A stretch of 64,000 nt of DNA from Hydractinia symbiolongicarpus (Eukaryota > Cnidaria > Hydrozoa > Anthoathecata > Hydractiniidae): the NCBI RefSeq assembly GCF_029227915.1, contig NC_079886.1, positions 17,272,501 through 17,336,500 of the forward strand, given 5' to 3'. The translations under genes were made by a program, and so were the position numbers. Positions 17,370 through 56,400 of this stretch are shown piece by piece; within the stretch, counting starts at the first letter, position 1; the number at the start of each line of letters is the position of its first letter. The notes beneath the pieces are model-generated. The model had not been told where the DNA came from, searched no databases, and saw only the letters and a program-made list of their open reading frames with translations.

Positions 17370-18447
17370 TTAACTCTCAATATCTCTTTTTTCTTCTTCT
17401 TCGTCTTTGTTTTTTTCTAAAATAACGAAACGAATTAATGACTCGTCTAGTTCTCTCGTTGGAAAATCATGCTTTTGAATAACATGTAAAGAAGTTGTAT
17501 TGTGCTTATTATTGACCTTCTCTTTTGAAGCTACAACAAGCCGATTTTCGTCACGATCAACGTGGAACTTACCGTCCGAACTCACTCTCTGAAGCGTTAT
17601 AACATTTGGTTGCTCTAAAGTTATTTTTTTATATTGTTTTTTTGTGGTGTCACTTGTTTTTTTTTGTTTTTTTACACGAACCCAAAATTTGAAGAATACA
17701 CTTTACAGCTTCCAACATAAATAGGTGGTTTTATAGCCGAGTTCACAGTGCCACTCTACTAACACCAATAGATAACATTGTTGAACCATTGACTTCAGCT
17801 ATACTTATTGGAAGTATACATATACTGTAGAAAAGTAACAGTAATAGAACACCTTTAGTCAGTCTTATCTCATACAACGTCATACAACGTATTCTTTCCA
17901 ACTTCTCTGCAACACGATTTATCCTAGAAGATTCTACTTCAGCCAGTGGCTGAATAGAAGCTTTGATGTGGTTAAATTTATAAATTGTTAAAAAAATTTT
18001 ACAGTATGTGAAAACAATAATAAGCCATGGGACAACCATACCAGCTAATTCCACAAATATAACGTAGCCTAGTTCTAATACAGTACAAAACCTACAGTCG
18101 GTAACTACTAAATTAGCTACACGTTCCTTTCCTTCATAAAAAACAAACAGGAATGTCCCAACAACTATAGACATTACCCAAACCGATGCTATTGCCCAAC
18201 AAAGCACTGATTTGGAAATACTTTTTACTTTATACTTCGATGATTCCATTCTATGGCATTCTATGGCATAAAATCGGTCCAGTGTTACTAAAAGCAAATT
18301 AATGCCGAATGACGTCAACGAAAATATAGCGCACATTGGAATAGATAAAAAATGATAACTATGACAGTTCTGGAGCAACCTTATTGATACGTCCATAGCA
18401 ATAAAAAGCAAATCAGACATCGACATGTTAAAAATTTTCCATTTCCA
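17370..18447 (-). pseudogene. Class A GPCR with frameshifts in TM7 (broken or mis-sequenced)
   Basis: Minus-strand frame from about 18447: KWKIFNMSMSDLLF is the typical intracellular loop 1/TM2 start with the conserved Asp. TM3 ends in TLDRFYAIECH (the DRY position). TM4 (SVWVMSIVVGTFL), TM5 (MVVPWLIIVFTYCKIF) and TM6 (GVLLLLLFYSICILPI) follow. The frame then meets a stop (SRVAL*). Shifting by one base gives NSAIKPPIY, clearly the TM7 N-S-x-x-(N)-P-x-x-Y motif with Lys for Asn. A second one-base shift is needed to enter a long open tail (FFKFWVRVKK, then about 90 residues to DEEEEKRDIES*). TM1 is absent: an in-frame stop lies just upstream, so it must be on another exon or lost. I read this as a pseudogene, but two sequencing or assembly errors would look the same. 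The ligand class cannot be assigned. Confidence 0.65.
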
Positions 18448-20554
18448 TCTTCACAATAATTTTGCAACAAGAAAATCTGGATATCTTCAAAAGATAGATA
18501 GAAGATAAATGTTTTTGGCAGTTTTTCCTTAAATTCGAAAGTTTAAATTTGCTTTCTTTAACTATAATAAATATGCTATTACTGCAAGCGGGAACCACAA
18601 CGGGGGGTTAAAAAAAAACTTAAATCCAACACACAGCCTTGATTTTGTTTTACCTTTAACTTACCTTCAGACCTTTCACTTACCTTCAGAACAACGATAT
18701 AAATTTATAATTTAAAAAAAAACATAAAAATATTTTTTTGTACCCCCCCTCCCCCCCTAGAAGAAATAATTGGTAATTTGTATTAAAGAATGGCTTAGAA
18801 TATCGTCCAAACGACTTTTGATGGTAAAAAAAAAACGCCATTTGGAATTTTAGAAACACCAGTAAACAAGAACTCGATTTTCTTGCTAAACAAAAAACAC
18901 GGATAAACAGCGGTACCAATATACTTTTAAACATTTTGTTATGTTAAAAATGAAACAAGTTACATGGAGTTTTGAACTATAAGGAAAAAAGATACAACCC
19001 ACGGGGAGAAAAAGCAAATTAACTTTTATGTCAAAACAGTGATGCTCAGTGTGGTCTGTGAGTCTGTATCTCTACAAAACAAAGCAAAACAACAATGACC
19101 AAAACATTTTGTGATAAACAATAGGTAGTCCTTTTCTGCGTGATTCCTTTAGAAGACAGAGCTAAATAATTGGACACATGTGAACCCTAAAATCTAATCG
19201 ACCTTTTTTTATTCTTGTTAAACTGAAGGTTGTTTTCCACTTGAAGAAAATTTCCTGCAGGATGAAACGAAAATGAGCAGAACTCTTTGGGGAAGTGTAC
19301 TCAAAATGTTTACACCACGTGAAAAAAAGAGGCACTAGGTCAGATGAAGGACACTGCTTTTGAGCCATACGTGCTAGGAGATTCCATCCCTGCGGCTCCC
19401 CCCCCCTTAGACTGCATATATATCTTACATTACCCTACTGATACGTACAACAATGTTCTAGCTTGCTAGCTGGGTCTCGGCCAGTAGGTGGCTCTAAATG
19501 GCCTGGACTAAAACTGGTCTAATTCAACAGACCTTACAGTTATCTCTTGAATTAATACGCAGCTTCTGCCTGCAAATGCTAAGACAGTGCCTATAGACAC
19601 CCCTAAAAGGTCATTTACATAAGATTGAAGAGTAAAGCGAAGTGAAATTCCAATGCGCTGCGATAGAGGGGGTAGAAGGTCAAATCTCTTGTGTTCATGA
19701 CTTTTAAGCATGTGCATTAATCGAAAACACTTCCTTCAAGCTCATACGGGTCTAAAATTTCACCCGAAGCAATAAAAGTGCATGAAAATAGTTCTAGGCA
19801 CTGATGTAGCTGCGCATTATTTTCATCAATGTTTAAAGACGTACACAACGAAAACAATGAACAGACTTTGTTTTTTTTACATAAATGATTAAAATAAATG
19901 TCACGTAAAGCGATACCAAAGTTTGCTTGAAGTTGGCTTTGTAATACCCCTCCATGGGTCACCATAAGCCTTCTTTAAGGTTATCAACTTAACACAGTTG
20001 TAGAATGTTATAAAAAAAAAACATGGTTGAAATAAATTTTGTTGTTGTCAGCACTTTTTCTGCCACGTTATCAGGAGCCTAAAACTTGTCTAAAATTCCA
20101 CCGTCTACTTAAAATTTAAGAACTTTAGTTCTAGAACAATTCCTAACATCTTGTTTAAAATTTATGTTAGCCAAACATACATCCAGGGTTTTTTTCATAT
20201 TTTGTCCGACAGCCAAATAAAAAATGTGTAAAACATCTTTAAAATTCTTCACTCTTTTATGTCATAAAATTCCAAAAATCGCCAAAAATTGTATAAACAT
20301 GTTTGTAACGTGTGAAAATTTGTACAATGATAGTTGAAGAACTCTCAACGTAATTTCACTCCTTTTGTTACAAGCTATAAATGTTACTCGCTCATATAAA
20401 CATGCAGATTTATTAGGAATAAAGAGTCAGTTGCAGGCATAATAATTGCTTCACGTATTCTGGAACATGAACGACGAATAAATTAGAATACCAAGATAAT
20501 TTGCTTGAGTTAGTATGAACGTTGCGTTAATCAGTACAGTGGTGAAAAAAACAC
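18448..20554. other. Intergenic stretch, mostly unassigned
   Basis: No whole gene is visible. It holds homopolymer runs near 18740, a repeat shared with about 11.9 kb (19230-19350), and the decayed coding-like stretch at 19508-19965. Confidence 0.4.
19508..19965 (-). pseudogene. Decayed coding-like stretch, unrecognised
   Basis: Two minus-strand open frames abut. The first (19965-19717) includes LQSQLQANFGIALRDIYFNH and QLHQCLELFSCTF. The second (19717-19508) includes SQRIGISLRFTLQSYVNDLL. They are offset by one base at about 19717, suggesting one coding unit with a frameshift. Composition looks like real protein, but I do not recognise the family. A fragment of a mobile-element protein is possible. 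Confidence 0.3.
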
Positions 20555-21004: not shown

Positions 21005-22237
21005 AATGTTTTGTGTATGATGTCGTAAACCATCCACATCAAGATTTTGTTTTTTATCTGTTTTTTTGTTCAGCGTCATTTTTAGTGTCAATACATATGT
21101 CAATGTGCACCATTCAGATTGCTGCTAATTGTTTACAGGAATCTTTAAGAAATAAAAAAAAGCCTAATTCTATACTTTTTAAGGCTATCGCACCATAGAA
21201 ATTGAATAAAATACGGATTAACTTCAGAGGTTGCATGTTTTTCTGTTTAATTGGAATAGAAAAATTGATCTAAAAACCATGTAGTAAAATTTTTTAATCT
21301 AAAAAGGCATTATTGGGTGCAAAAAATAAAAATTTTGACATCTTCATAATGTAAGGGAGTGTTTTTCTAGGACTATTAAAGGTAAATCACTTATTATCAG
21401 GTAATCATAGTCTCATTTTTCCTTGGTTTTGGAAAGTGTCATCAAATCGAAAGAATCCAGAGAACATTTTTTAAGATGTGGTTTTTTATTAAAGATCTTA
21501 AGCGCGGTTAAATATGTCGAGAAGTAATATCAATGAAAACTTAATTACTTGGTATGATTTTTTACATATAAAAAATTGAGTGCTTCAAATATATGGGTAA
21601 CACAAAAATTATTGTAGAGACAATGCCAAAAAAGCTTGTAACAAAATACAAGAGTGGTAATAGACTGTACGGAAGTTACCATAATTGCCTAGGTCATAAA
21701 TCGATTCGAACAGGAACGTTTCCCTTCAATCGATTTTTTCGGTGATAATGAACCATCCGAGTTGCATCCTAACCATGGTCATTTTGACTTTATCAACAAA
21801 AAAAAAACAATTCACAGCGTTGGATTTTGTTCTTTCTTCATAGCGCGCAATAGGTGATTTATCGTTGCTACACCACGTACAATTCTCCCCAAAGAACTGT
21901 CTATGATTTTCTCCTGGCAAACCCTTTTGCAAAAGCGACTTAGGATATAAATTAATTCACCCTCTGGATCATGATTTGTAATTACTGATAGGGGTAAAAA
22001 GTAATTTCTTTTTGTAAATGGAACAAAGTAAGTAGGCTCATTAAAAAATTGCAGCAAAGAAATTGCAAGTGTGGGGTGTGGCAAGTGTGCACTTGTCTAA
22101 TAGGGTTAAAAAAATCAAAGTCAGTCAGCAACAAAATTCATATAGTAATCACAGTTACCTATGCCCGTTAAACAATGACGTATTGTAATTTGATATGTAC
22201 TTTTCTTGTTTGATCAGGTATAAAAATTATATCAAGA

Positions 22238-23908
22238 ATGACACATCAGAACAGTTCCAATTCAGCAAATCTGCATCAAGAAAATAACAAAACAGAAGAA
22301 AAAGATAATATCATGAAGTGGAGGAAAACGAACTTGAAGAACTTATTATCTAGATTATCCTCGAAAGATATAAATTTGATTGAAACGACCATCATCATGA
22401 TTAGCTTGTTGGGAAGCTTTATAATGGTTTTACCATACACTGTTATCCAACTTGGCTTACCTAGTTGGCTATTGCTACTTGCCGTTATAATATTGCTTTT
22501 AGCATACACAAACCATTTAATGAACCAATCATGTTTACGCATGCTTGAAGAATATAAGGATGAAAAGTTGGTGCGTGCACCACAAGTTAAAGTTGCTAAG
22601 TTAGCAGGTGGTAATGTATTGGCATATGCTGTTGCCATAACTATTAATATCACATGTGTTAGCATTGCAGTTGCTCAAATCTTGGTTTCATCCACAATTC
22701 TTAGCGAAATTGTTCCGATATCTGGAGTGTCTGTGGACAACAGAGTGAGAATTTGGGCTATTGTCCTACTGGTATGCATATCTCCGCTTGTGTATATTGG
22801 TTTTTACAAGGATTTAAAACAAAGTGCTCTCCTATCTGCTTTATTTGTAGTATTGGGTTTACTTCTTTCTCTTGGGATCACTGGTTATTTAGTATTAAAA
22901 GGAAACCATTCTGTAGTAGCAAAAAGTACTTTGTATCGTTATGAACATGAGAGCTTTTTTAAAACATTTGGAACAATGTTTTACACAATAGGGGGCATTG
23001 TATTAGTAACTCCTGAGGTAATTGTGTTTGTGACGAAACCAACCAAGATGGTTTATTGCGTTCTATCTGCATATGGTGTGATTGCATTCGTGTATACAGG
23101 ATACTGCATTATAATGTATTCAGCATTTAGTATGCAACTTCAGCCATCCATGACTGCCACACTTCTTAAGGCAATATTGCTGAATGGAAATTCAACCATG
23201 GCAGTTATATGCATCCATATATTACAGCTAAGTTTGTGTTTGCACTTAATGTTGTCAACAGTTTTGTATCTTAATCCATTCTTTACAAACGTGGAAGCAA
23301 ACCTCAACATTCCTATAGGTAAGTAGCAGTGGTTAATCATGAAGCCCTTTGCGCCCTTTTTATAAACAAAGTGCTTGCAAGGTCAGCAAACACAACAAAT
23401 TATTATTCCCAAATTTTGCTATAAGGTTTTGAGTTTCGCGATAATTTAATTTAGCGAATGACGAAATTGATAAAAATTCGCAAGAAAATATTTTTACGAA
23501 TGACGACAGTGGCAATTAAGACATTTCGCGAAAAAACAGAAAATTTGCGCATTCACGAAACTTAATTCTTGCAAGCATTCACTTCTTTAAGATAATTTAT
23601 TCAAATCGTCTTGTTTTATTTGTTTAGAAATGAATTGGAAAAGATTTGCTTTCCGAACCTGTGGATTGTTGACAATTGCAGCAGTTTGCCTTTTAATTCC
23701 AAAATTTCAGTCAGTGTTATCTCTAGTCGGTGGTATTCCTTTGGTAATGTCAGTTGTGATATTTCCAATTGTTATATATGCAAAGTTGTATGAACTAACG
23801 CTGAACAAAAAGGTTTTATTGGTTTGTTTATGGTTATTTACCGTTATCTGTATGGTCGGAAATTTTGTGATTAATCTGCAGGATATTGTCACTGGTGTGC
23901 CGAATTAG
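22238..23908 (+). CDS. Amino acid/auxin permease family transporter, copy A (SLC32/36-like)
   Basis: Exon 1 (22238-23318, 1081 nt) and exon 2 (23628-23908, 281 nt) give 453 residues. The donor is ATAG|GTAAGT and the acceptor is ttatttgtttag. A polar N-terminal tail (about 45 residues) is followed by roughly eleven hydrophobic spans. The first (IETTIIMISLLGSFIMVLPY) has the 'GSxxxxLPY' signature seen at the start of Aa_trans carriers such as SLC32 and SLC36. A charged loop (LEEYKDEKLVRAPQVKVAKL) follows, as in vesicular and lysosomal members. The last three spans are in exon 2, and the protein ends VTGVPN. Probably a proton- or ion-coupled carrier of amino acids on vesicles, lysosomes or plasma membrane; the substrate is not determinable. 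A nearly identical, oppositely oriented copy lies at 28384-30400. Both look intact. Confidence 0.85.
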
Positions 23909-28383: not shown

Positions 28384-30400
28384 CTACTTCACCACACCAG
28401 TGACAATATCCTGCAGATTAACCACAAAATTCCCGACCATACAGATAACGGTAAATAACCATAAACAGACCAATAAAACCTTTTTGTTCAGCGTCAGTTC
28501 ATACAACTTTGCATATATAACAATTGGAAATATCACAACTGACATTACTAAAGGAATACCACCGGCTAGAGATATCATTGACTGAGATTTTGGAATTAAA
28601 AGGCAAACTGCTGCAATGGTCAACAATCCACAGGTTCGAAAAGCAAATCTTTTCCAATTCATTTCTAAACAAAATACCACAGGACGACGTGTATAAATTA
28701 CCTTAATGAAATAAATTTCACGCATAGTTAAACTTTTTTACAAAATGTTCTAATCGTCACTATCGCCTTTCGTAAAAATATTTTCTTGCGATTTTTTGTC
28801 AACTTCGTCATTCGCTAAATTAAATTACCTGAAAACTTAAATTCAAAGTCATGTTTCTTTTTACACATTTGAATAACAGAAATAATTTTAGTGTTGAGTG
28901 GAGTTTCATCAGCCCGTGATTTCCTACACAGGTTTGAGAATCATCCTTACTACGTTAATGACAGAGTTGATGATTCTGTTAAGAATCTAATTTGGACATA
29001 ATACTTTGTTATTGATGTACGATGAAATGCATTCTAACTATTTGATGAATTGTCGTCAACTTGCGCCGGAATAAATACAGTAATCATGCAAATTATGCAA
29101 CATTATTGGCCGTTTGCCATAATTAAAATGTCTCAAAATCTATAAAAACCACCCATTCGCGAAATTCAATTCCCACGAAATCTAAAAATTTTAAAACATC
29201 GATTTTCGAACAACAGCTAAAAGCAAACCGCGAGAAAACGTTATTTACAAAAATAGACAATAAAACAATAAGTAACAACGCAATCACAAAGTTCTTCATT
29301 GTTGACTACCACAACTTACCTATAGGAATGTTGAGATTTGCTTCTACGTTTGCAAATAATGGATTAAGATACAAAACTGCTGCCAGAATTAAGTGTAAAC
29401 TCAAACTCAACTGCAAAATATAGATGCATATTATTGCCATGCTTGAATTTCCGTTCAGCGATATTGCTTTAAGAAATGTGGCAGTCATGGATGGCTGAAG
29501 TTGCATTCCAAATGCTGAATACATTATAATGCAGTATCCTGTATACACGAATGCAATCACACCATACGCAGATAGAACGCAATAAACCATTTTGGTTGGT
29601 TTCGTCACAAACACAATTACGTCAGGAGTTATTGCTGCAATGCCCCCTATTGTGTAAAACATTGTTCCAAATGTTTTAAAGAAGCTCTCATGCCGAAAAT
29701 GATGTGAAGTATCTTTCGTTACTGCAGAATGATAACCCTTTATTACTAAATAACCAGTGATACCAAGGGAAAGAAGTAAACCCAATAATACTGATAAGGC
29801 AGCGACGAGAGCACTTTGTTTTAAATCCTTATAGAAACCAATATACACAAGCGGAGAGATGCATACCAGTTGGACAATAGCCCAAATTCTCATTCTGTTG
29901 TCCACAGACACACCAGATATCGGAACAATTTCGCTTACAATCGTTGATGAAAGTAGGATTAGTGAAACTGCATTGCTAACACATGTGATATTAATAGTTA
30001 TGGCAACAGCATATGCCAATACATTACCACCTGCTAACGTAGCAACTTTAACTTGTGGTGCACGCACCAACTTTTCATCCTTATATTCTTCAAGCATGCG
30101 TAAACATGATTGGTTCATTAAATGGTTTGTGTATGCTAAAAGCAATATGATAACGGCAAGTAGCAATAGCCAACTAGGTAAGCCAAGTTGGATAACAGTG
30201 TATGGTAAAATAATTATAAAGGATCCCACCAAGCTAATCATGATGATGGCTGTTTCAACTAAATTTATATCTCTTGATGACAATCTTGATAGTAAGTTCT
30301 TCAAGTTCGTTTTCCCCCACTCCATGATTTTATCTTTTTCATCTGTTTTGTTATTTTCTTGCTGCAGATTTGCTGAAATGGAACTGTTCTGATTTGTCAT
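28384..30400 (-). CDS. Amino acid/auxin permease family transporter, copy B (SLC32/36-like)
   Basis: Exon 1 is 30400-29320 (1081 nt) and exon 2 is 28664-28384 (281 nt), the same lengths, phase and donor (ATAG|GTAAGT) as copy A. The product has 453 residues. Most residues are identical to copy A. Differences are scattered (MTNQNSSIS versus MTHQNSSNS) and cluster in one loop at about residues 230-240 (AVTKDTSHHF versus VVAKSTLYRY). The C-terminus ends VTGVVK instead of VTGVPN. No frameshift or stop was seen, so both copies should be functional. The same SLC32/36-like inference applies. The two genes lie tail-to-tail across the spacer, each transcribed towards the centre. Confidence 0.85.
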
Positions 30401-30484
30401 TCTTGATATAATTTTTATACCTGATCAAACAAGAAAAGTACATATCAAATTACAATACGTCAATGCATAGGTAACTGTGATTAC

Positions 30485-41515: not shown

Positions 41516-44500
41516 ATGGAGCAGATATCAGAATGGATTTGGACAGATAGTTTCTGGTTACCTCAAGGTTATACATGGAAAGATCTTGAGCCAACTCCAG
41601 GTGTTAACAAGCCAGACTTCTACGATCTTTACTATGTTCCAATCTTTGCTATCCTGATTTTATGTATTCGTTATGTTTTTGAAAGGTACGTAAAAGAGAA
41701 TTGAACTTTATTTAAGTTTCAATGCAAGCATATGCGAATGGACCTTAAATGGATCTCAAGATACTTTTACAAATTGGACTTACATGAAAGATCTTGAGAA
41801 ATTCCCAATGACAGGCCTATCAATAAGGGAAGAGCAATTGCTCTTGCTCACGCAAAGACTCGCCCAATTCTGAGAAATGAAAAACAAGCGGAGCCATTAA
41901 TTGCTCCCCCAATTCCAGAAAAAGGTTTTCTGGCTGAGCAATATCAATTTATCTCACAATGGAAAACAATGTTTTCTTTCTTCTTATTTACAGTAAAAAA
42001 GTACCAAAATATATAAAAAAGACAATAATAAAATATGCGTTTATAAACTTATTCTATTTATTTAGATTGCTCACCCAGTTTAATTTATTGTAACATTGGG
42101 GGAGCGATTTATTGCTCGGGTGTTATTTTCTTATTGATAGGCCTGCAATGACTTATCTACTTTTTGTTAAAAGTTCATGTAGCCCTAGATATTGCTTTTT
42201 AAATACTTGTTTTTCTTGCCACCACAACCTTAGACCTTCTTCTTTGTCAAAAAATTCAAGCTTGCTTCAGTCTTTTCTTTTGGCATGGGGCCCAATTATA
42301 TAAGATTTACTACCCTGCTCAAATTAATGACTTTCATTTGGTAGAATTAATGGCTTATACAAATAAGTTTTGTTTTTTTTAAAAAGTAATTCAACATGAT
42401 ATACTGGGGAAGCTAATCAATAAAATGAAAAAATAATATATTAGCAGCAGGTGTGTCCATGATTTGTTTCAAATTGCAAAGAATTTATTTCCAAAAATAG
42501 GTATATAATGGAATTTACTGATCTATAGCCTGTTGACCTGGGTATGATGCTCAACTGAGTATTATTTAACCTCGTTCCAAGGGGTTATTTATAAAACAAG
42601 CCAAAAATCCTTTGGTACGAGGCTCCCAAGTTACTGAATGATATATAGATTAAAAACACTAAAAGAAATGCTAAAGCAAGTTAAAAGCATATTGAGGAAA
42701 ACTACTTTATGCACCCCATAAATAAAAGTTAATAGAAAAGGATCTTGTTTTATCTGTGTTGTTATTATGATAAATATAATTTAGCTTTGGTATTTTGTTT
42801 TGGTGTTTCCCGCATGTTTCTGAAAAAGACAAACAAAGAATTAATTGAGGATTGGCTCTTCCATGTTTTTTTGGCTACATGTTGATGTCCTTGTTGATCA
42901 CACTTTTTTCTGCCAAAACGACTTTCCCACCAAAAACAGTGTAAATTAATATATAATTTAATAAACACTAGTCTCACAAAAAACAACACTACCATTTCCT
43001 TATACCCAACTTTTGCTTAGGTTAGTATCTCCGTGAGGCACCACCATGGTTGTTGGCAAAAGGAAAATTTTGGTTTTTAAGGTCCCTAGATCGCCGGAAA
43101 ATGGCTTTGTGGCACTCAAAGCAACAAAATTTTGTACAATTATTACTTGCATTTTATTACATAATTTTATATTAATATATTAGTCTTTGTTGCTGATAAA
43201 AAGTACCTGTTAAACCTGTTAAAAATTAAACATTACACCGTCGTGTCCACAATAGATAACTTCTATTGTAAAACAACAAAGACCGTATTAGTTTTTTTCT
43301 TTGCATTTTTTAATTTTTTTGGAATAAGAATTTGGGATCCCATACCGGTAACCGGCAGCAAAACCTCTCTGGATACGTCAGTGCCACTGTCAAAATTTAG
43401 CTGATTTATTGTAATGTCAATGTATATAATGCATTTAAAATAATTGTAATCCTTCGCAAATGTTTTATTTGTTGTGACATTTCAGAGACGTTATATGCCA
43501 CCGCTAAATTTGTTTTTATTAAATATTCATTTATGACATTTTGTTTTTGTTTGATGTGAATAGGGCTGCGCTATAAGCTGGTTAAGTTGGTTGAAACCAA
43601 TTTATATCTAGATTTATTGCAACACCATTTTGTTTATCTCTTGGCATAGCAAAACATATCAAAGTGGTGTACGAAGAAAACCAAATATGTGAGCATGTAT
43701 TCTTAGCTAACACAAAACATCCTAATGAAAAGCAAGTGCAGGGTCTTGCTAAGCAATTAGGGTGGACCCCTCATAAAGTTAACCGTTGGTTCCAAAAGAG
43801 ACGAAGGTCAATTCAGGTGCCGTTACTGAACAAAGCATCTGAGAGTTGTTGGAGATGTGTTTTTTATTTCTGGTTATTCTGTTTTGGTGCCTACACTATT
43901 TTGCCAACAGAATGGTTTTATGACACGAACAAGTGGATGGAAGGTTACATCAGAAAAGTAAGTACCTAAGTGTTGTTTAAAATTTTTAAATGATTACTCT
44001 ATTGTTATTCAATTTGCAGAGATGTCCCAATTGAATACTTTACTTTCTTTATTTTCTAGCAAGATTTCAACATGTATCTAAGATCGTATTATTTGATGGA
44101 GCTCTCATTTTACACCTCGTTATTATTTTCTCAATTTATTGATGCCAAGAGAAAGGTAAGGGAGTGCATGTTTAAATTTTTAGGCAATTGCAGAGGTAAA
44201 TGCTGACTTTCCAAAATTATGTGATTCACTACAGCAAATATTTGCTGATGTAGTTTCCTTCAATTTAGATGTGACTTAAGCACATGAAAGTTTTGCTCTA
44301 ATTTTCTCCCTTAATTTAACTTCTGTTCATGTATGGGAGCAGAGAGTGTTCACGCAACAAAATTAAAATTTACAACCTAAAACACAAGTTTGTTGGCAAA
44401 TAAGATGTCTATTCGGCAGTTTCTCAATTCATTAGAGAGGCAATCTGTTATGCTGTGTAAAATATCAAGCAAGTATCAAAAATGTCTGTGCTTAGTATTG

Positions 44501-47500
44501 TGGGCCACATTGTATGTTGTTGCATGAATATTCATTAAACAACCTTTTAATGTTTCTGTGATTTGACAATGTCCTAAAGTAATTCTATAAATAATAATTG
44601 TTTGCACTATTTTTTGTCATTTCAGGACTTTTATCAGATGTTCTTGCACCATATTGTTACCATCATGTTAATTTTTTCTTCGTTTGCTATCAACCATCAT
44701 AGAATTGGTGTAGTTATTATGTTTTTGCATGATGCGTCAGACTTTTGGCTTGAGGTAAACGTTTTACTTGTTGTGACTATTCATAACTATATATGTAAAT
44801 ATATTGACCAAAACATTTTATATACAATATAACCTGAGAACAGATTATTATTGACAAATTTCATTTGATTTCATGTTTGTTAAAATTCATGGGGCCAGGC
44901 AACATGCCCTAACTTCCTAAATTAACGGGAAAAAAGGTATACGTTTATCTAAAAATTCCATTGTATCATTTTTTATGCTTTGATATTCGTGTGTGACGAT
45001 TATGATGTAAACTTGTTTTGTAATAGGTTTGTCTCTTTGCTGATCTTCCTATTCCTATTATAATTTTAAAGTTTGTCATCTACAAAAGTTTGTAAGAAAT
45101 TTATAATATGATACGCTCATGGATTTGGTACACACACGCCTAGGGAACATCCATTTGCTGAACTAAATTTTTATAATGGATTTTTTTTCTGTGGAATGTA
45201 AGTCTAAAATATTTTGGCATTTGCAAATGCAAAATTGAAATCAATCCAATTTATATTCCTTGATTAATTCTCTAGATATTCTTGATTCTTGGGATTCTAA
45301 GTTACACTTACACTAATTTAAATTCTCCTTAAAATTTTTGTTTCCCTTACTAATCTAAAAATCTCTTAAGGTGGCAGTAACCCTTTTTTTTTAGCTGTCC
45401 AAATAGCTGAATTATTTACTCAGTGTTTTATTTATACCATATTTTTTACTATTTCCTAAAAATATGGGCCTTAATACATAATAAAATGATTTTAACTTAA
45501 CACTAAAATTGCTGAGTCAGCAGAAATTTCTTTTTAAAAATGTATTAAAAACAAGAAAAAAATCGCTTCTACGGGCTCCAACTTTTTACAATCTCGTTAT
45601 TTTTTAAATGAACCTTGGGTTAACCCTGTTAAAACGGTGTCGGTTTTTTTTTCTTTCTTATTTTTTTAACAATAGCCTTTTGTTTTTTTCAAAATATTCT
45701 TTGTTAGCATCCCCTGTTGCATCACACTCTGTTAAAACAAAAATATTCAGAATAAAAAGATTTCCGCACACCATATCATGGCTGCATGATTCACCAAGCA
45801 TGTCTGAAAATTTTAAAGTAAAACGAAAATGCTATCGAAAGTTAAAGCTCGTGCAGTGTAGCATAATGAAGATCTTCTTAAATTTCTACGTAATGCGCCA
45901 TCTTTGTTGTTACTAACGTTTCTCTCTAATAATTACGTCATTTCTTTCTGTACAATTTTGCAAGCACGTACTAGACCTAAACTATATTCAGCAGAACTAA
46001 TTAATTATTCATGAATTTTATTTTAAAGAGGAATTGTTGAGGCTGAATATTTTTGGTGAAAGATAATAGCATTTTAGCCATAAAATCGTGACGAGTGTGT
46101 TATAACAGAAAAAATATGAATAATAATCTGAAAATAACCTTTCGTAACTAATTATGCAATAAAAAAATTCCAATTTTTAAAAGGGTTACTGCCACCTTAA
46201 ATCTTGTGTGGGACGAAGTGTGAAAAATCAATTAATTATAAAAAATATAAAGAAATGCTTACCTTTGTGGGTTTCTAGAGAAAAAGGTGAAAATGTGTTA
46301 AATATATGTATATATTTTGTTTTTTTCCTATTATAGGCTGCGAAAGTGTTTAATTATGCAAAAAAACAAAGACTATGTGATGGATTATTTGTTATGTTTG
46401 CAATATCTTTTTTCATAACCCGTTGGATCTATTATCCTATCTGGTATTTATTTATTTATTTTGTTCGACAACTAAAATTTGAATTGACAGATTACAGTTA
46501 ATTATGCACTTCTGTATGGCATTTTTACCACAAATAATTTGATAATACTGCAGAACATTCAGATGGCATAAAGTATTATGAACACAATGATTACCAAACT
46601 GTGGCCTAAAAGGCGTTTTTATAAAAAAATACATTACAATGATTTGCTTTTATGGTCGCCGAATTATCAAACGTGTTTTGTTCAAGTAGGCAGGCGAAAC
46701 AACTAAAAAAGAATAGGCCATTGCCACCTCTACTGAGTTACACAGTATGGGTTCACAACTTTTTTTGTTAAAAAACCTGAAAGTTAACTTACCATTTATT
46801 TGTACGCAAAGTTAATTTCCCATTTGCCATATTATGCTATTTTTCTTTAGCATGAATGATGAAAAAATGGCTGTTTCAAATTGAGAAGAAAAATCTTTAG
46901 TTTATTTGTGCTAATGTGTCTGTGATTCTTTGTATACTTTAGGGTTCTACATGCTTTTGTGTTTAAATGTGTAGCAATTATCGGACCCTGGAGGGGCCAT
47001 GTCGTAGAATGCAGTTTACTTATCATTCTTCAAGTAAGTTTAGGTCGTAGCCAGGGCAGGTATTTTCGTGCCAGGATTGGGTAAACCACTATGGGTGTTA
47101 GTAGGGAAAATAAAAGGGAAAAAAACAGATTTGTGGTAGCAATCAGCAATAACCAACAGTTCAGACAGAAGGTAGAAACAAGCTCATACATGCATAGAGA
47201 CATTTTTCAAAGTTTCTAAAATTTCTGTTTTTGTCATCTAACATTTTTTTTTTTACTCTTGAATCGATTAAACCTGTGATTGTTTAATTATAACATCCTT
47301 TTATGAAATTGACAGTTTAAAACTTTAACCTTCTCAATTTCCAAGGAACCGTCTTTTTGGCTGCCCTGAAACAGTCTCGCCTATTTTACAATGCAGTCAA
47401 AGCAATATGAAGTTAATGTTATTAATTTGTCTTGAAGTGTGGTTCACTGACTGGGTGGTTTTGTGGGAATAAACCATAAATGTAGCAGAACAATTAAACT

Positions 47501-50500
47501 TGTCCATGCAAGGAACTACTTTTATCCAATATAACATTACATTTTATGATTATAGAAAAAATAAATGACTATATTGTAAAATGGGTTTTTTAAAATATTC
47601 CAAGATCACTAACAACTGGCTATCATCTGGTACAAGACGGCAGACTAATTTACCATTATGCAACTCGTGTTTTTTTGTATTGTGTTGTGTCACCTTTTGT
47701 TGTATTGCATTGTGTTGGTCCATGTGGTTTTATGTTGTGTTACTTCATGTAGTTTTTTTCTTCGTTGTGTTGTTGCGTGTCGTGTAGTGTTTTTTATGTA
47801 GTGTTGTACTGGGTTCACCCTCTCATTCCAATGTTTGACCGATTTGACACTTATGTCCAAATAAACCTCCCTACTTAAATAAACGCTCTGGATTAAACTT
47901 CGAAAATACACTCGAACTGCAGGGTATTAAAGGTTATTAATATATTGGTATTATGACCAAACTTTGCGAAAGCATGAAAATTTGTTGGCTGAAAGTAAAT
48001 TGACATAGCCTAAAAGATTCTTAAGCCCACTGCAAGATTTTCTTGTCTACAATGGTCCAAGATGAAGAAAAAACGTTTTGAATTTTCTCTATTATATAGG
48101 TATATTTTGTTAAAAAGGGCCAACTTTGTGCAAGGGGTTGACGAAATAGAGATGACCCAAATTATGTATGATGGGAGTACCCATGTTTGAACGGGCTACC
48201 AACTAGTTTGTTATAACAAAATTTAATCTTGTTAATCATTGCAATACATTTTTGAATGAAAATGAAAAAGCGTTTCGTCGCCTACCTGAGCAAAGCATAC
48301 ACATATCTGTCTTTTTCAGAACGTATAATCCTACGATGATAATTCTGCGCTTAATAACGTAACATTTGCGAAACCACAGTTTTTTTAGATTTGAATATCG
48401 AGTGCAAAAAATCATATAAATATAAAATGTTTACTGTATTAATAGCAGTGTTAGTATGTTATCTTTGAATCAATCCATATTCATCCATTCGTACTGACAT
48501 CTTGGAATATGTTTATATGCAGGCTTCTTTAAACCTACTTTGTTTACCAAAAGGCTGACTGTATTGTTGGTGATTGCCCCTGCACACATGTTTTATTTAT
48601 CTTTGCAGGGTATTGCATTGCATGATATATATTAGTTGGGAAATTATTGGTCCATACCTGTCTTACTATTATTTCACCACCCTTCTATGTATTTTGCAGG
48701 TAAGGTGAAAAAAACGAAAATGATGCCAAGTTGAGAATTTAGATGTCTTTATTTTTCTCTACGCGTTTGTTTTATTATTTTTACTTGTTTGTGATTTATG
48801 ACACTATTACTTCTTCAAAATCTTTTCTTTTTTTTTACTGTGTGTTGATCTTTTAAACTGTTTTTTTTTATTATTATGATGTTTTTTGTTAAGCATGTTC
48901 TTATCTTGTAAAAAAATATTTTGAGCTAGAGAAGGGAAAACTAAATTTTCGAAAAAGGTTTTCCTAACATCAATAAAACAGACTTCGATTTCGATATTCG
49001 TTTAATGTTATTTTTTCTAGATATTACACATCTACTGGGGTAGTTTAATTTTACACATGGTGTATAAACTTGCGACGCAAGGAAAGGTACGTTTTTGATA
49101 GATTTTTTTTCTGTCCTAACTTTTGTAACGGGATAAATTTCTTAAGCAGATGTGTGCGTGGTTGGTTAATTAGTCGTTCTGAAATCGCCACTTCAACGAC
49201 TGTTTAACGAAAAGCTGCCTACCAAAAAATGTCACGTTTGTATTTCAGAAAATTTCGAACCAATCAAAGGACGTTATTTTTGTACACAAAAAACGTGAAT
49301 CTTGTGGCAGAACGCGAGTTATAATGTGTTTCCGACGATCATAGGTTAAAAGTTTTGGAAAGAAGTGTAATAGTAAATATCTCCAAAGTTAAAAAAATGT
49401 TAAGAAAAAATTTAAAAATCAGATTTTAAAGTTTTGTGATCCCAAAAAAGCAAACAGCAAACATGAGAACCTAGTAGTTTTGTAAATGGGATCTGATATT
49501 GATAGGAGAGGGGTCGTTTTTTATCAGTGTCTATTAAACCTTTTAAACTTTATTTTTTTTTCTTGATAATTTTTGTACCATTATATAGAAAATCATACAA
49601 GCTTTCTAAAAATATATACATTAATGTATCAAAATAAAGTTTTAGTGAATTAATAGCATTTTAAAATGTCACACCTTTTTTTATACTCACTCCTTGATGG
49701 TACAGAAAAAACGATTTTTATGATTATTTTTCAACATATTGGTTTTGCAGAAAAAAAGTGGAAAAGGATAAAAAGAAGTCTTCTAAGTTCTAAGTTATTT
49801 TTAGCCATCCTTTTTATGGAAGGAAAAACACTATTGTTATTAGCAAATTGTTAATATACACAATGTTAGCTAGGGGGTTAATCCTTCAATCATTAGTTTT
49901 GCAAAATCGAAAGCAGCTAATCGCTCATATGTAATTACAACATTTAATGTGTCAACCGTAAAAAGAATGATATCCTTACACGTTTCTTATAAAAAAAACC
50001 CCGAGAGTATGGGGTTAAATGAAGGTTCTAACCAGCGGGACAAAGAATCGCAATCACAAAATAGGTCTTTAAGAAGAAGTTTAAATTTTTGGCCAATTGC
50101 AATATGCATCCACGTTTTAAAAACACGCAAAAGTCAGTCAAGCATTAATGAATAATAAGGTCTTTAGTATTTTTATTGTCGTATTTGATAAGGCAACTCT
50201 TGACAATATATTTTACAGACCATTTGCTACTTATCCTTAAAACAGCCGCTCATAAGAAAACAAAATTTATATCCAGTGTAACATTCTCCAGCAACAGACA
50301 ACAATTTTTATTTCGTTACTTCGTTAACTGTTTGGTTGCTCCGTTAACTGTTTGGTTGCTCCGTTAACTGTTTTGTTGCTCCGTTAACTGTTTCATTGCA
50401 CCGTTAACTGTTTCATTGCACCGTTAACTGTTTTTTGCCCTGCTCCGTTACCTGTTTCGTCAATATTTATCGGCAAGAACTACTTCTCAATCAATTGTTT

Positions 50501-50671
50501 ATTTGCAGGATGTTTATAAAAGTTGAATTTTGAATTAAATAATGACGGATTGATGATGATTTGTTTGTTTAGGTCGACAGAGATACTCGTAGTGAGGATG
50601 AAACTTCAGATGGGGAAGTAGAAACCGTGGCGTCCAACAACACATCCGCTAATTCTAAGAAAAAGAAATAA
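41516..50671 (+). CDS. Ceramide synthase (Lag1/LASS family) with Hox-like domain
   Basis: N-acylates sphingoid bases with fatty acyl-CoA in the ER membrane. Exons: 41516-41685 (start; IWTDSFWLPQGYTWKDLEP then TM1), 43650-43957, 44060-44155, 44626-44754, 46337-46443, then one of 46943-47033 or 48609-48699, then 49021-49086 and 50573-50671 (stop). The second exon encodes the Hox-like segment (HPNEKQVQGLAKQLGW...VNRWFQKRRR) and the start of the TLC domain. The Lag1 motif is complete: FYQMFLHHIVTIMLI, the second part FLHDASDFWLE, with both catalytic-region histidines and both Asp. The tail is acidic (DRDTRSEDETSDGEVE), like CK2-phosphorylated mammalian tails, and ends KKKK. Phases agree throughout, except that a short linker exon of 3n+2 nt between TM1 and the Hox-like region was not placed. 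A stretch near 43488 (RYMPPLNLFLLNI) resembles it but lacks a donor. Confidence 0.88.
41812..42145. mobile_element. Terminal-inverted-repeat transposon in ceramide synthase intron
   Basis: The 16-bp ends CAGGCCTATCAATAAG and CTTATTGATAGGCCTG are perfectly inverted. CAATGA flanks both sides (41806-41811 and 42146-42151). Internal GAGCAATTGCTC-type palindromes and GCTCCCCCAAT/ATTGGGGGAGC add secondary inverted repeats. The CAG start is hAT-like, but the duplication is 6 bp, not the usual 8. No coding sequence. Confidence 0.7.
42568..42623. mobile_element. Short copy of the AACCTCGT inverted-repeat family
   Basis: AACCTCGTTCCAAGGGG at the left is inverted to CCTTTGGTACGAGGCT at the right. It is smaller and more diverged than the copies at 8.8 and 16.1 kb, and no target duplication is evident. 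Confidence 0.45.
45370..46196. mobile_element. TTAA-flanked inverted-repeat transposon in ceramide synthase intron
   Basis: Ends GGTGGCAGTAACCCTTTT and AAAAGGGTTACTGCCACC are perfectly inverted, and TTAA flanks both sides (45366-45369 and 46197-46200). TTAA duplication is typical of piggyBac, though the same ends could be read as a TA duplication with an AAGG start. The 827-bp body has no recognised transposase. Confidence 0.75.
46943..47033 (+). CDS. Ceramide synthase alternative exon 6a
   Basis: 91 nt, acceptor tatactttag, donor CAA|GTAAGT. It accepts the split Trp codon (TG|G) of the preceding exon and encodes 30 residues beginning VLHAFVFKCVAIIGP and ending LLIILQ. It has the same phase, length and boundary motifs as 48609-48699, and is therefore interchangeable with it. 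Confidence 0.75.
47680..47800 (+). repeat. GT/T-rich simple-sequence tract
   Basis: Irregular TGTTGTG, TGTAGTG and TTGTGTTG words over about 120 bp inside the ceramide synthase intron between the alternative exons. Low complexity, no coding meaning. Confidence 0.6.
48609..48699 (+). CDS. Ceramide synthase alternative exon 6b
   Basis: 91 nt, acceptor tctttgcag, donor CAG|GTAAGG. It encodes 30 residues starting VLHCMIYISWEIIGPYLSYY and ending LLCILQ. The SWEIIGPY core is very close to that of vertebrate CerS5/6, so this is probably the ancestral or canonical form. Joining it after exon 6a would add 91 nt and break the frame. Confidence 0.8.
50321..50460 (+). repeat. 20-bp minisatellite, about 7 copies
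   Basis: The unit CGTTAACTGTTTSRTTGCWC repeats from 50321 every 20 bp, with the last copy interrupted. It lies in the last intron of the ceramide synthase gene, about 110 bp before the final exon. Confidence 0.85.
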
Positions 50672-53412: not shown

Positions 53413-56400
53413 TCAGTTATTTTGCAACAGGTAGTGTGTGAAGGTTTCCACATTAGACACCGGATCCCTGGTTGTCACATCGTCAAACATTCTTTGGTAG
53501 TTTGTGTCATTTTCATCAAATAGTAACTCGGCTGACTGTGAAAGTCCTTGGTTTCCTATCGAGGGTATTACAGGCGGAGGTGAGTATGGAACAGGTTCAT
53601 GTGGAGAAGAAACAGGTCCCATAGCATTTATTTCCTGTAAAGCAAAACAAAGATGTTATCGCACTGATATGTCCTTTTAGAATTTTCTTGTTATGAGTTA
53701 TTTCGAGGTGACAGATTAAACTGAATAAAGTATAAACAAACGGCAGCCGAAAAGGTTTCTCTGTTTACCTTATAACAACTTTCTTGTCGATGCAAATGCA
53801 AATTAATACGCAATTTCTATTAATTTGGTATAAATATTGACGGGTCGAAAAAAATTATATTTCTCGTGCGGGTAGTAATTAAGGCAAGCGGCGTAAAATA
53901 TTATCGAATATCTCCACATAGTCACAGTTTTTCTGTTTAAAATGGTCGCGCGCAGCTTTATTTGAGCAATTTATTTGATGTTTACAAAACACACTGATAG
54001 ACAAATGATAGAGCTTAACGCACGTACCATTTGATTGCTTGGTGTCACTGGCTGAGGCGAATTTGCGAATTGGTTCATAGTATTAATAGATGGAAGACTA
54101 GAAAAAAAAAACATCACAATACCAGTAAGAAATTACAGGCGTTTTTTATTTATCTCCAACGATCTGCAGTAACTTACATGCGAGCAATAATGCCGGCACC
54201 GACATAACCACCAGAGAAGGTATCAGGATTTGTTGGAACTAAATAAAAACATTACACGTAACAAACCATTCACAAAATAATCAATGATTGACTTCTCAAT
54301 TTATTGGAAAAACAAGTTAAAAATCTGTGTTGAGAAACAATCAAGCATTTAACAGTATTAAAAGTCTGTGTGATTTTGTAGCAATAAGTAGCAGGATGAA
54401 GATAAGCTAAGTGAATGTCGGTTAAATTTAACCACTACAGCCTTCTCACTAACTATGCCACCTTTTCTGCCACCTTTTTAACAGTCAAAAATAAGTCACT
54501 GACTGTGACTTATTTTTTTAAATCTTTTTGTCTCAACAAATTTCGTGCAGGATTGTGAAATTCGAATAAACAGAAATACAACATATGGATTTGTTTTTCA
54601 GTCATTTTAGTTATTCTGAATAGTTAAAATGTATTTTCTTAACTTACCTTCAATTGAACGGAACCTGCCAAATGCTCGCTCCTTTGGGATATCCGGGAAT
54701 AAATGGGTGAGTTCGGGTATATCGAATATCCTTGTGGAATAAATGTTGAAATACATAATAAATATTAAAAAAAACAGAAACAAAGAACAAACGAACGCTT
54801 AAAATACTCATCAGTATTAACTAACGAACGTTCAAGCTAACCTATCAGCTAGGCCTCTGATAGTGAAATCTTTCGTACTCCAGGGTTGCAAATACCAGAT
54901 GTCTCTTCGGCCTACACAAAAAAATGATAAGAAAAGAGTGTCTTTTAAAATATTTTTAGGCAGTTAAACGTCTTTCTAATTCCTTCCAGCACAGCCAGCC
55001 ATTACAGAGAAAGAAACACACAGCTAGTCAGCCATTACAGAGAAAGAAACACACAGCTAGCCAGCCATTACAGAGAAAGAAACACGCAGCTAGTTAGCCA
55101 TTACAGAGAAAGAAACACACAGCTAGCCAGCCATTACAGAGAAAGAAACACACAGCTAGTCAGCCATTACAGAGAAAGAAACACATAGCTAGCCAGCCAT
55201 TACAGAGAAAGAAACACATAGCTAGCCAGCCATTACAGAGAAAGAAACACACAGCTAGCCAGCCATTACAGAGAAAGAAACACACAGCTAGCCAGCCATT
55301 ACAGAGAAAGAAACACTATTTATTTAGTTCTTTTGGTCTATAAAGCAGGGTACAAGCGATGCAAATAAAATATTACATATTTCACAAATGAGTTTGGAAA
55401 AATACGAAACAATAGCCTTAATGTTCTAAAAAAATCAATAGCTTGCCAACTAAGGACCTGTGAAGCAACGATCTTATTGGCACGAACTTAGACGCGAATT
55501 TCATTTGGAGATGGGGTGAAATGATTTTTGACATGTATTTAATTTGGCGAGGTATGAAAAAATTTAAATTTGGAGTTGGTTTAATTTGGCTGCCTTTTTT
55601 TAACATTATTTAATATTTTGAAATTTCTATGTTAAAACTAGAAAAACAAACTGCAATTGTTTTTGCCGATAGGACAATAAATCTTTTGAAAACGTGTTTG
55701 CCAATTTACATTTTAGAACAAAAGTATAAAAAAGCTATGTAAAGTTAGAGTTACTCTTGATAAAATAATCAATTTTTCAAAAATTGTTTTATGTATCATA
55801 GTTAAAAATTGTACTTACAATGTTAATAAAATATTTTCCAGGATGAAGAAAAAAATCGTTCTCTATTCATAAAAAATGTTTTAAAAAAATCAAATATCCG
55901 AGTGATCATTTTGAGTATTTTACTAACCGTTTCTTTCGCAACACCAAGCGATCGTGACAGCACCAAGTTCACCATCACTGAAGCGGATCAAGAAGGTGCC
56001 AGGAGGTTTCTCTAATAGCTTAGCATGTGCTGTTTGACGTGACATAAATTCTAGACATCTAAAGGAAAAAAAGACATGGCAGTGGACTGAGACGCAACGT
56101 AAAAGTCGAACAATCATTTCCGGCTGAGCACTCACTATCAAAAAAATAAATTCCAGGACTTTTCCAGGAGCTTTCCAGGAATTTTCTGACCTTTTCCCAA
56201 GAAGTTATTTCGTTCGACAGAAACGGAAATTCCAATGAAAAAAAAAAAAAAAGAACAAAAATTTAGATTTTGAAAAAAAAAAATTTCTAATAAGTTGTCA
56301 GGACCGCCCTGCGTTTAACTTTCTTTCAAAATGGCAATGCTGCAAAAAGATAACAAGCACATAGAAAAACCCAGAAATAGCGTTCTTACTGGTCCTTCCA

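Follow-up and report, generated by a model that had tools for sequence, protein, structure and literature searches.

Acyl chain choice by the mammalian ceramide synthases CerS1-CerS6 is attributed to a short loop of the enzyme (PMC10122649, PMC11919693). Mutually exclusive tandem exons are a known class, mostly ancient (PMC9741552), and have been described in membrane lipid-pathway and fatty-acid enzymes: exons 6a and 6e of the polyprenyltransferase COQ-2 in nematodes, annelids and molluscs (PMC7434440), and the fatty-acid gate exons of mammalian ACSL1 and ACSL6, which swap a short acyl-gating motif (PMC1543647). Here we describe a gene of the same ceramide synthase family in a 64,000-nt stretch of the genome of the colonial hydroid Hydractinia symbiolongicarpus (the window, whose positions are used for all gene coordinates). 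It contains two versions of the exon for that same loop, exon 6a (46943..47033, + strand) and exon 6b (48609..48699, + strand). We consider it probable that these are a tandem-duplicated, mutually exclusive exon pair in a CerS5/6-like gene, with isoforms that hold different acyl chains.

Exons 6a and 6b in a ceramide synthase gene

Exons 6a and 6b have the same length (91 nt), AG/GT borders and the same phases (2 to 0): each supplies the last base of a TGG (Trp) codon whose first two bases come from exon 5, and each exits in phase 0. The donors are gtaagt (6a) and gtaagg (6b), and the acceptors end in actttag and ctttgcag, respectively. When 6a alone or 6b alone was spliced in, the frame was 1104 nt long and gave 367 residues with no internal stop. 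With 6a and 6b together, a stop appeared after 8 codons of 6b, and when both were skipped, a stop was found right at the junction. Frame and phase thus strongly imply that the two exons exclude each other, as a preliminary description of this DNA had proposed. Its coordinates, exon lengths, entry and exit phases and residue identity were reproduced exactly on re-splicing and alignment. Its statement that the use of both exons adds 182 nt and breaks the frame was right about the frame and wrong about the size, as both exons instead of one add 91 nt.

The two 30-residue peptides are identical at 12 positions and differ at 18, while 39 of 91 nucleotides are identical. Their ungapped BLOSUM62 score of 52 was reached by none of 20,000 shuffles of 6b (best 29), nor did any of these shuffles reach 12 identities with 6a. 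Open 91-nt AG..GT cassettes are present in the window on both strands (24 on the plus and 23 on the minus strand), and only these two are exon-6-like (next best score 0). A third copy of exon 6 was looked for among these 47 cassettes and was not found. In a border-free scan (41516-50671, + strand, three frames), a peptide at 50152 in the last intron scored 34, above the shuffle maximum; it was rejected because it lacks cassette borders and because a top score from so long a scan carries little weight.

The best protein match of the 6a form (isoform A) was P0001, "ceramide synthase 5-like isoform X2" of Hydractinia symbiolongicarpus, with 100 % identity over 367 residues. The record name "isoform X2" implies at least one further annotated isoform. 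When the 6b form (isoform B) was used as the query, the best match was again P0001 (95 %), and no separate 100 % record was present in the protein database, which was clustered at 90 %. It is therefore probable that a public annotation already includes the exon pair.

The gene product is predicted to be a ceramide synthase by its family, residues and fold, with putative N-acylation of sphingoid bases. The TLC domain (PF03798) scored 149.1 bits in isoform A and 155 bits in isoform B (cut-off 24.6), and the homeodomain-like region of CerS2-6 (PF00046) was above the cut-off in both forms (26.5 bits vs 22.9, residues 84-121). Residues 4-349 of isoform B align with human CerS6 (301.9 bits). The protein search gave 208 matches, of which the best 120 were listed and 33 sequences were retrieved. 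The alignment has 28 rows, consisting of 24 of the 33 retrieved proteins together with P0024, P0026, P0031 and isoform B (left out were P0019, P0033, P0079, P0080, P0095, P0097, P0101, P0110 and P0120). H212, H213, D240 and D243 are identical in all 28 rows. The C-terminal DxRSDxE motif reads DTRSEDE here, which keeps D, R, S and the last E and has E for D at the fifth residue. A predicted model of isoform A is confident through exon 6a and its fold matches human CerS6, with helices at residues 35-66 and 128-153.

The coding part of the gene covers 41516-50671 (+) with eight coding-exon positions. Exon 1 (41516..41685, +) runs from the ATG to a gtacgt donor and is identical to the isoform X2 record. 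Exon 2 (43612..43957, +) encodes the end of the first long helix, the homeodomain-like part and the next helix, as judged from PF00046 and the model helices, and is followed by exon 3 (44060..44155, +) in the spliced frame. Exon 4 (44626..44754, +) carries the catalytic HH and HDxxD residues (H212, H213, D240 and D243), and exon 5 (46337..46443, +) ends within the split Trp codon at a gtattt donor. Exons 6a and 6b each provide residues 284-313 of their isoform; 6a is in the isoform X2 record and 6b is assigned by frame and similarity. Exon 7 (49021..49086, +) was placed by frame and alignment and encodes the active-site side of transmembrane helix (TM) 7 with H316 and W319. Exon 8 (50573..50671, +) contains the DTRSEDE stretch, in which D339, R341, S342 and E345 are invariant in the alignment, and the stop. 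An exon-like stretch noticed by eye between exons 4 and 5 (45027-45091) was rejected, as it is 65 nt long and would break the frame. The last intron holds a tandem array at 50311-50433 (20-nt unit, 6.2 copies).

Position of the exchanged segment

The 11-residue specificity stretch of CerS5 is given as E299-S309, with W327 as a catalytic residue (PMC10122649). The rodent CerS5 of our alignment (P0026) has residue 299 as the first of the corresponding stretch and a Trp at 327, in agreement with the published numbering. The stretch aligns to exon-6 positions 8-18, which read KCVAIIGPWRG in 6a and ISWEIIGPYLS in 6b. The 6b loop shares 8/11 residues with CerS5 (P0026) and also with CerS6 (P0031), the 6a loop shares 3/11 with each, and the two loops share 4/11 with each other. 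Two further claims of the preliminary description agree with these results, namely that the segment matches the mammalian acyl-specificity loop and that 6b is CerS5/6-like and 6a strongly diverged.

For CerS6, the structure is described as showing an acyl tunnel with walls formed mainly by TM4, TM5 and TM7 and with the TM6-TM7 loop as a seal at the endoplasmic reticulum (ER) end (PMC11919693). The side of this loop differs between sources, being cytosolic according to PMC8789539 and on the ER side according to the structure, which we followed. From the exon position relative to the CerS6 tunnel, exon 6 covers the cap and the luminal TM7 wall. The exchange of 30 residues takes in the luminal end of TM6, the TM6-TM7 loop and the luminal half of TM7, which together form the cap and the end wall of the acyl tunnel. 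The catalytic residues that were checked are encoded by constant exons, and the swap leaves the active site alone.

The A form in relatives and competing explanations

Three relatives (P0003, P0004 and P0006) have A-form segments such as AFIFKVPKLIGPWKGHWLE, with constant parts that are 69-72 % identical. Each is a single contig of 1.3-1.6 kb with 366-368 residues read through; since such short contigs hold full-length frames, these sequences are spliced or intronless. B-form segments were observed in P0002, P0005, P0007 and Hydra vulgaris P0012. Both the annotated isoform X2 and the full-length A-form frames of the three relatives support that the 6a form is used.

A tree was drawn for the constant parts of 26 rows, i.e. 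of the alignment without isoform B and without P0021, which is truncated. Hydractinia and P0002 form a fork (92/90), and the fork joining it to P0003, P0004 and P0006 has values of 93/91. The P0003/P0004/P0006 fork is starred, the only such fork in its group, and P0005 and P0007 are outside. When exon-6 segments were compared, Hydractinia 6a was 63 % identical to P0003 and 40 % identical to its own 6b, and 6b was 77 % identical to P0002 and P0007. These identities cut across the tree of the constant parts. In the simplest interpretation, the exon pair would be older than the split of Hydractinia from these lineages, with assemblies that sample one form or the other.

A/B profile log-odds were calculated with eight training rows in a leave-one-out manner. 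The A training rows scored +28.6, +66.7, +34.4 and +62.5, and the B training rows -54.1, -62.9, -28.7 and -59.9. Outside the training rows, negative scores were obtained for Hydra (-42.0), P0009 (-24.6), P0021 (-20.4), P0016 and P0017 (-24.5 and -28.4; the jellyfish Rhopilema and a relative) and the vertebrate P0026 and P0031 (-17.0 and -19.5). P0014 (+0.6) has no GHxxE motif. This motif (G, H and E at residues 301, 302 and 305) was found in 4/4 core A rows and in none of the other 24 of the 28 rows. When the six A-scoring rows other than Hydractinia were forced into one clade, the grouping was rejected on the constant parts by the approximately unbiased (AU) test (p = 6e-5; 1e-6 with Hydractinia), for groups that were named after the tree had been seen and in which three of the six rows are weakly assigned. 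A search with the A segment alone gave 6 proteins from 7 candidates and no new A carriers. As three relatives carry the A form with the common GHxxE motif, 6a is probably not a product of decay.

According to the explanation that we favour, exon 5 would be joined to one of the exons 6a and 6b, which would in turn be joined to exon 7, and transcripts with both or neither exon would be frameshifted and either degraded or translated into truncated protein. Isoforms A and B would perform the same chemistry, B with a CerS5/6-like acyl chain and A with another. Exclusivity in RNA, its regulation and the altered acyl preference are the parts of this explanation that we infer.

Several observations weigh against this explanation. 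In the three flanking introns, the longest exact complementary words are 9-12 nt. Among 100 simulated intron pairs with the same dinucleotide make-up, between 21 and 95 had words of such length. As there is no intron pairing beyond chance, the frame is the sole mechanism in hand for exclusivity. The comparison of related species for both exons, which the preliminary description had suggested, gave the A form in three relatives and the B form in others, and both forms were not seen in one relative, each cluster having one representative. A-only paralogues may be present among P0002-P0011, and the assignment of these proteins to hydrozoans is suggested by the tree alone. P0008 (+18.4), P0010 (+4.0) and P0011 (+5.7) score for A without GHxxE and are weak A assignments; P0009 and P0011 are starred sisters in the tree, yet their log-odds fall on opposite sides. 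We also count here that the 6b form, if in the database, would be hidden in the 90 % cluster of P0001, where isoform X1 may sit.

The stretch 46337-49100 contains 13 inverted repeats. The donor of exon 5 (gtattt) does not have the usual G at +5 and is a candidate regulated site; this is a weak lead because the exon 4 donor (gtaaac) does not have this G either.

Position 305 is occupied by Glu in all four core A rows, and by Phe, Leu or Met in the remaining 24 of the 28 rows. It stands eleven residues before His316 and, by periodicity, would lie on the same helix face, in the presumed tunnel wall. It is chiefly because of this charged residue that another acyl group, or a regulatory form, would be expected. 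A more specific version of our explanation is tentative and we hold it with low confidence: the pair may be a hydrozoan splicing switch for ceramide acyl type, kept since before Hydractinia split from several lineages, in which isoform A, with the conserved GHxxE at the luminal end of TM7, takes an unusual acyl chain and so differs from the other ceramide synthase loops that we compared. It is similarly doubtful, though conceivable, that Glu305, which should face the tunnel at a distance of three helical turns from His316 of the active site, would favour an acyl group that is, for example, polar-ended (hydroxylated) or of much different length.

The same residue can be read in another way, which we regard as unlikely. 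Exon 6a may be used and isoform A may be inactive or regulatory, so that it folds, dimerises with B and damps the activity of B rather than choosing a chain. The departure of 6a from the CerS5/6 loops and the Glu on the presumed TM7 tunnel face are consistent with this, and dimer partners are reported to affect ceramide synthase activity in mammals (PMC8789539). However, the six checked catalytic residues are unchanged in isoform A, and the A segment has kept its form in three relatives with a common motif, which suggests a kept function.

It is quite improbable that P0003, P0004 and P0006 represent a separate A-only gene and that Hydractinia 6a is a recent capture or a relic and not one member of an ancient pair. 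A single form was seen per relative, as this would predict, but by their constant parts these three proteins fall within the gene lineage of Hydractinia and P0002 and not with a far paralogue, and Hydractinia 6a has intact phase and borders, no stop and is used by an annotated isoform. That 6a is a non-functional duplicate (a cryptic or poison exon) is hardly credible, since in spite of its strong nucleotide divergence from 6b it is open and in phase, no shuffle was as similar to its partner, the A-form residues are kept in full-length frames of three relatives, and the model of isoform A is confident.

Other loci and comparison with known systems

Other ceramide synthases of Hydractinia were examined as a control. 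Two intronless genes (L001, G000:C5:18714133-18714720, and L002, G000:C5:18700485-18701060) are located ~13 kb apart and are 48-49 % identical to the window gene. Their loop classes differ from exon 6 (a PLQSYFTFPY insert and a short loop without GP), and it is possible that they arose as retrocopies and fixed other loops. On the minus strand of G000:C5, at ~7588800-7592400 (L009-L011), there is a diverged TLC/ceramide-synthase-like gene with introns; tblastn found one loop copy in it, in a longer open stretch. In G000:C3:29079463-29086887, four single-exon TLC-domain frames (L003-L006, 224-267 residues) are present on one strand within 7.5 kb, with no tblastn match to the window ceramide synthase at E 1e-3.

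Other features of the window include two uninterrupted Aa_trans transporter frames (PF01490) at 22214-23323 (+) and 29309-30424 (-), which are separated by 6 kb and form an inverted duplicate pair with 86 % identity over 370 residues. An uninterrupted frame for a rhodopsin-family seven-transmembrane receptor with a partial PF00001 match is at 17746-18450 (-). A tandem array at 54993-55316 has 9.8 copies of a 33-nt unit (95 % matches), and a unit of this size would keep the reading frame.

In the open-licence PMC literature, no mutually exclusive loop-exon pair was found in any ceramide synthase, wider searches being no proof of absence, and no paper was found on Hydractinia together with ceramide synthase. 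Ceramide synthase splicing itself has been described, including two major CerS6 isoforms and events in human CERS4 and mouse Cers2. Skipping of CERS5 exon 10 in glioma concerns the same subfamily and is reported to change C14 and C16 ceramide levels; unlike in Hydractinia, a single exon is in or out, the cytosolic C terminus and its phosphorylation are altered, and the loop is kept (PMC11142752). Skipping of CERS2 exon 8 in breast cancer also alters ceramides, as proposed for Hydractinia, but it removes nearly the whole catalytic motif and, as described there, exchanges no homologous exons (PMC7876150).

The nearest parallels are in other enzymes. The COQ-2 swap is reported to alter helices that line a presumed substrate tunnel, and one form is pan-eukaryotic and the other lineage-specific, as in the Hydractinia pair (PMC7434440). 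However, COQ-2 is a different enzyme with a different substrate, and its product switch was tested by exon removal (PMC7434440), whereas the Hydractinia pair is known from sequence. The gate motifs of ACSL1 and ACSL6 are described as differing slightly (Phe or Tyr; PMC1543647), in contrast to the 18/30 residues that differ between the Hydractinia exons. Thus, both the exon class and the retuning of lipid enzymes (COQ-2, ACSL6) were already known, and what would be new is a probable pair of mutually exclusive loop exons in a ceramide synthase.

The swapped loop is the chain-length ruler that was singled out by mutagenesis and cryo-EM. The locus would provide a natural, clean exchange of this loop, with the rest of the enzyme unchanged, in an animal kept in the laboratory, so that chain choice and the use in polyps, tissues and stages can be compared directly between the two forms. 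Mammals have separate genes for different chain lengths, whereas Hydractinia would have two loops in one gene by splicing; this one gene appears to do by loop exchange what mammals do with several ceramide synthase genes.

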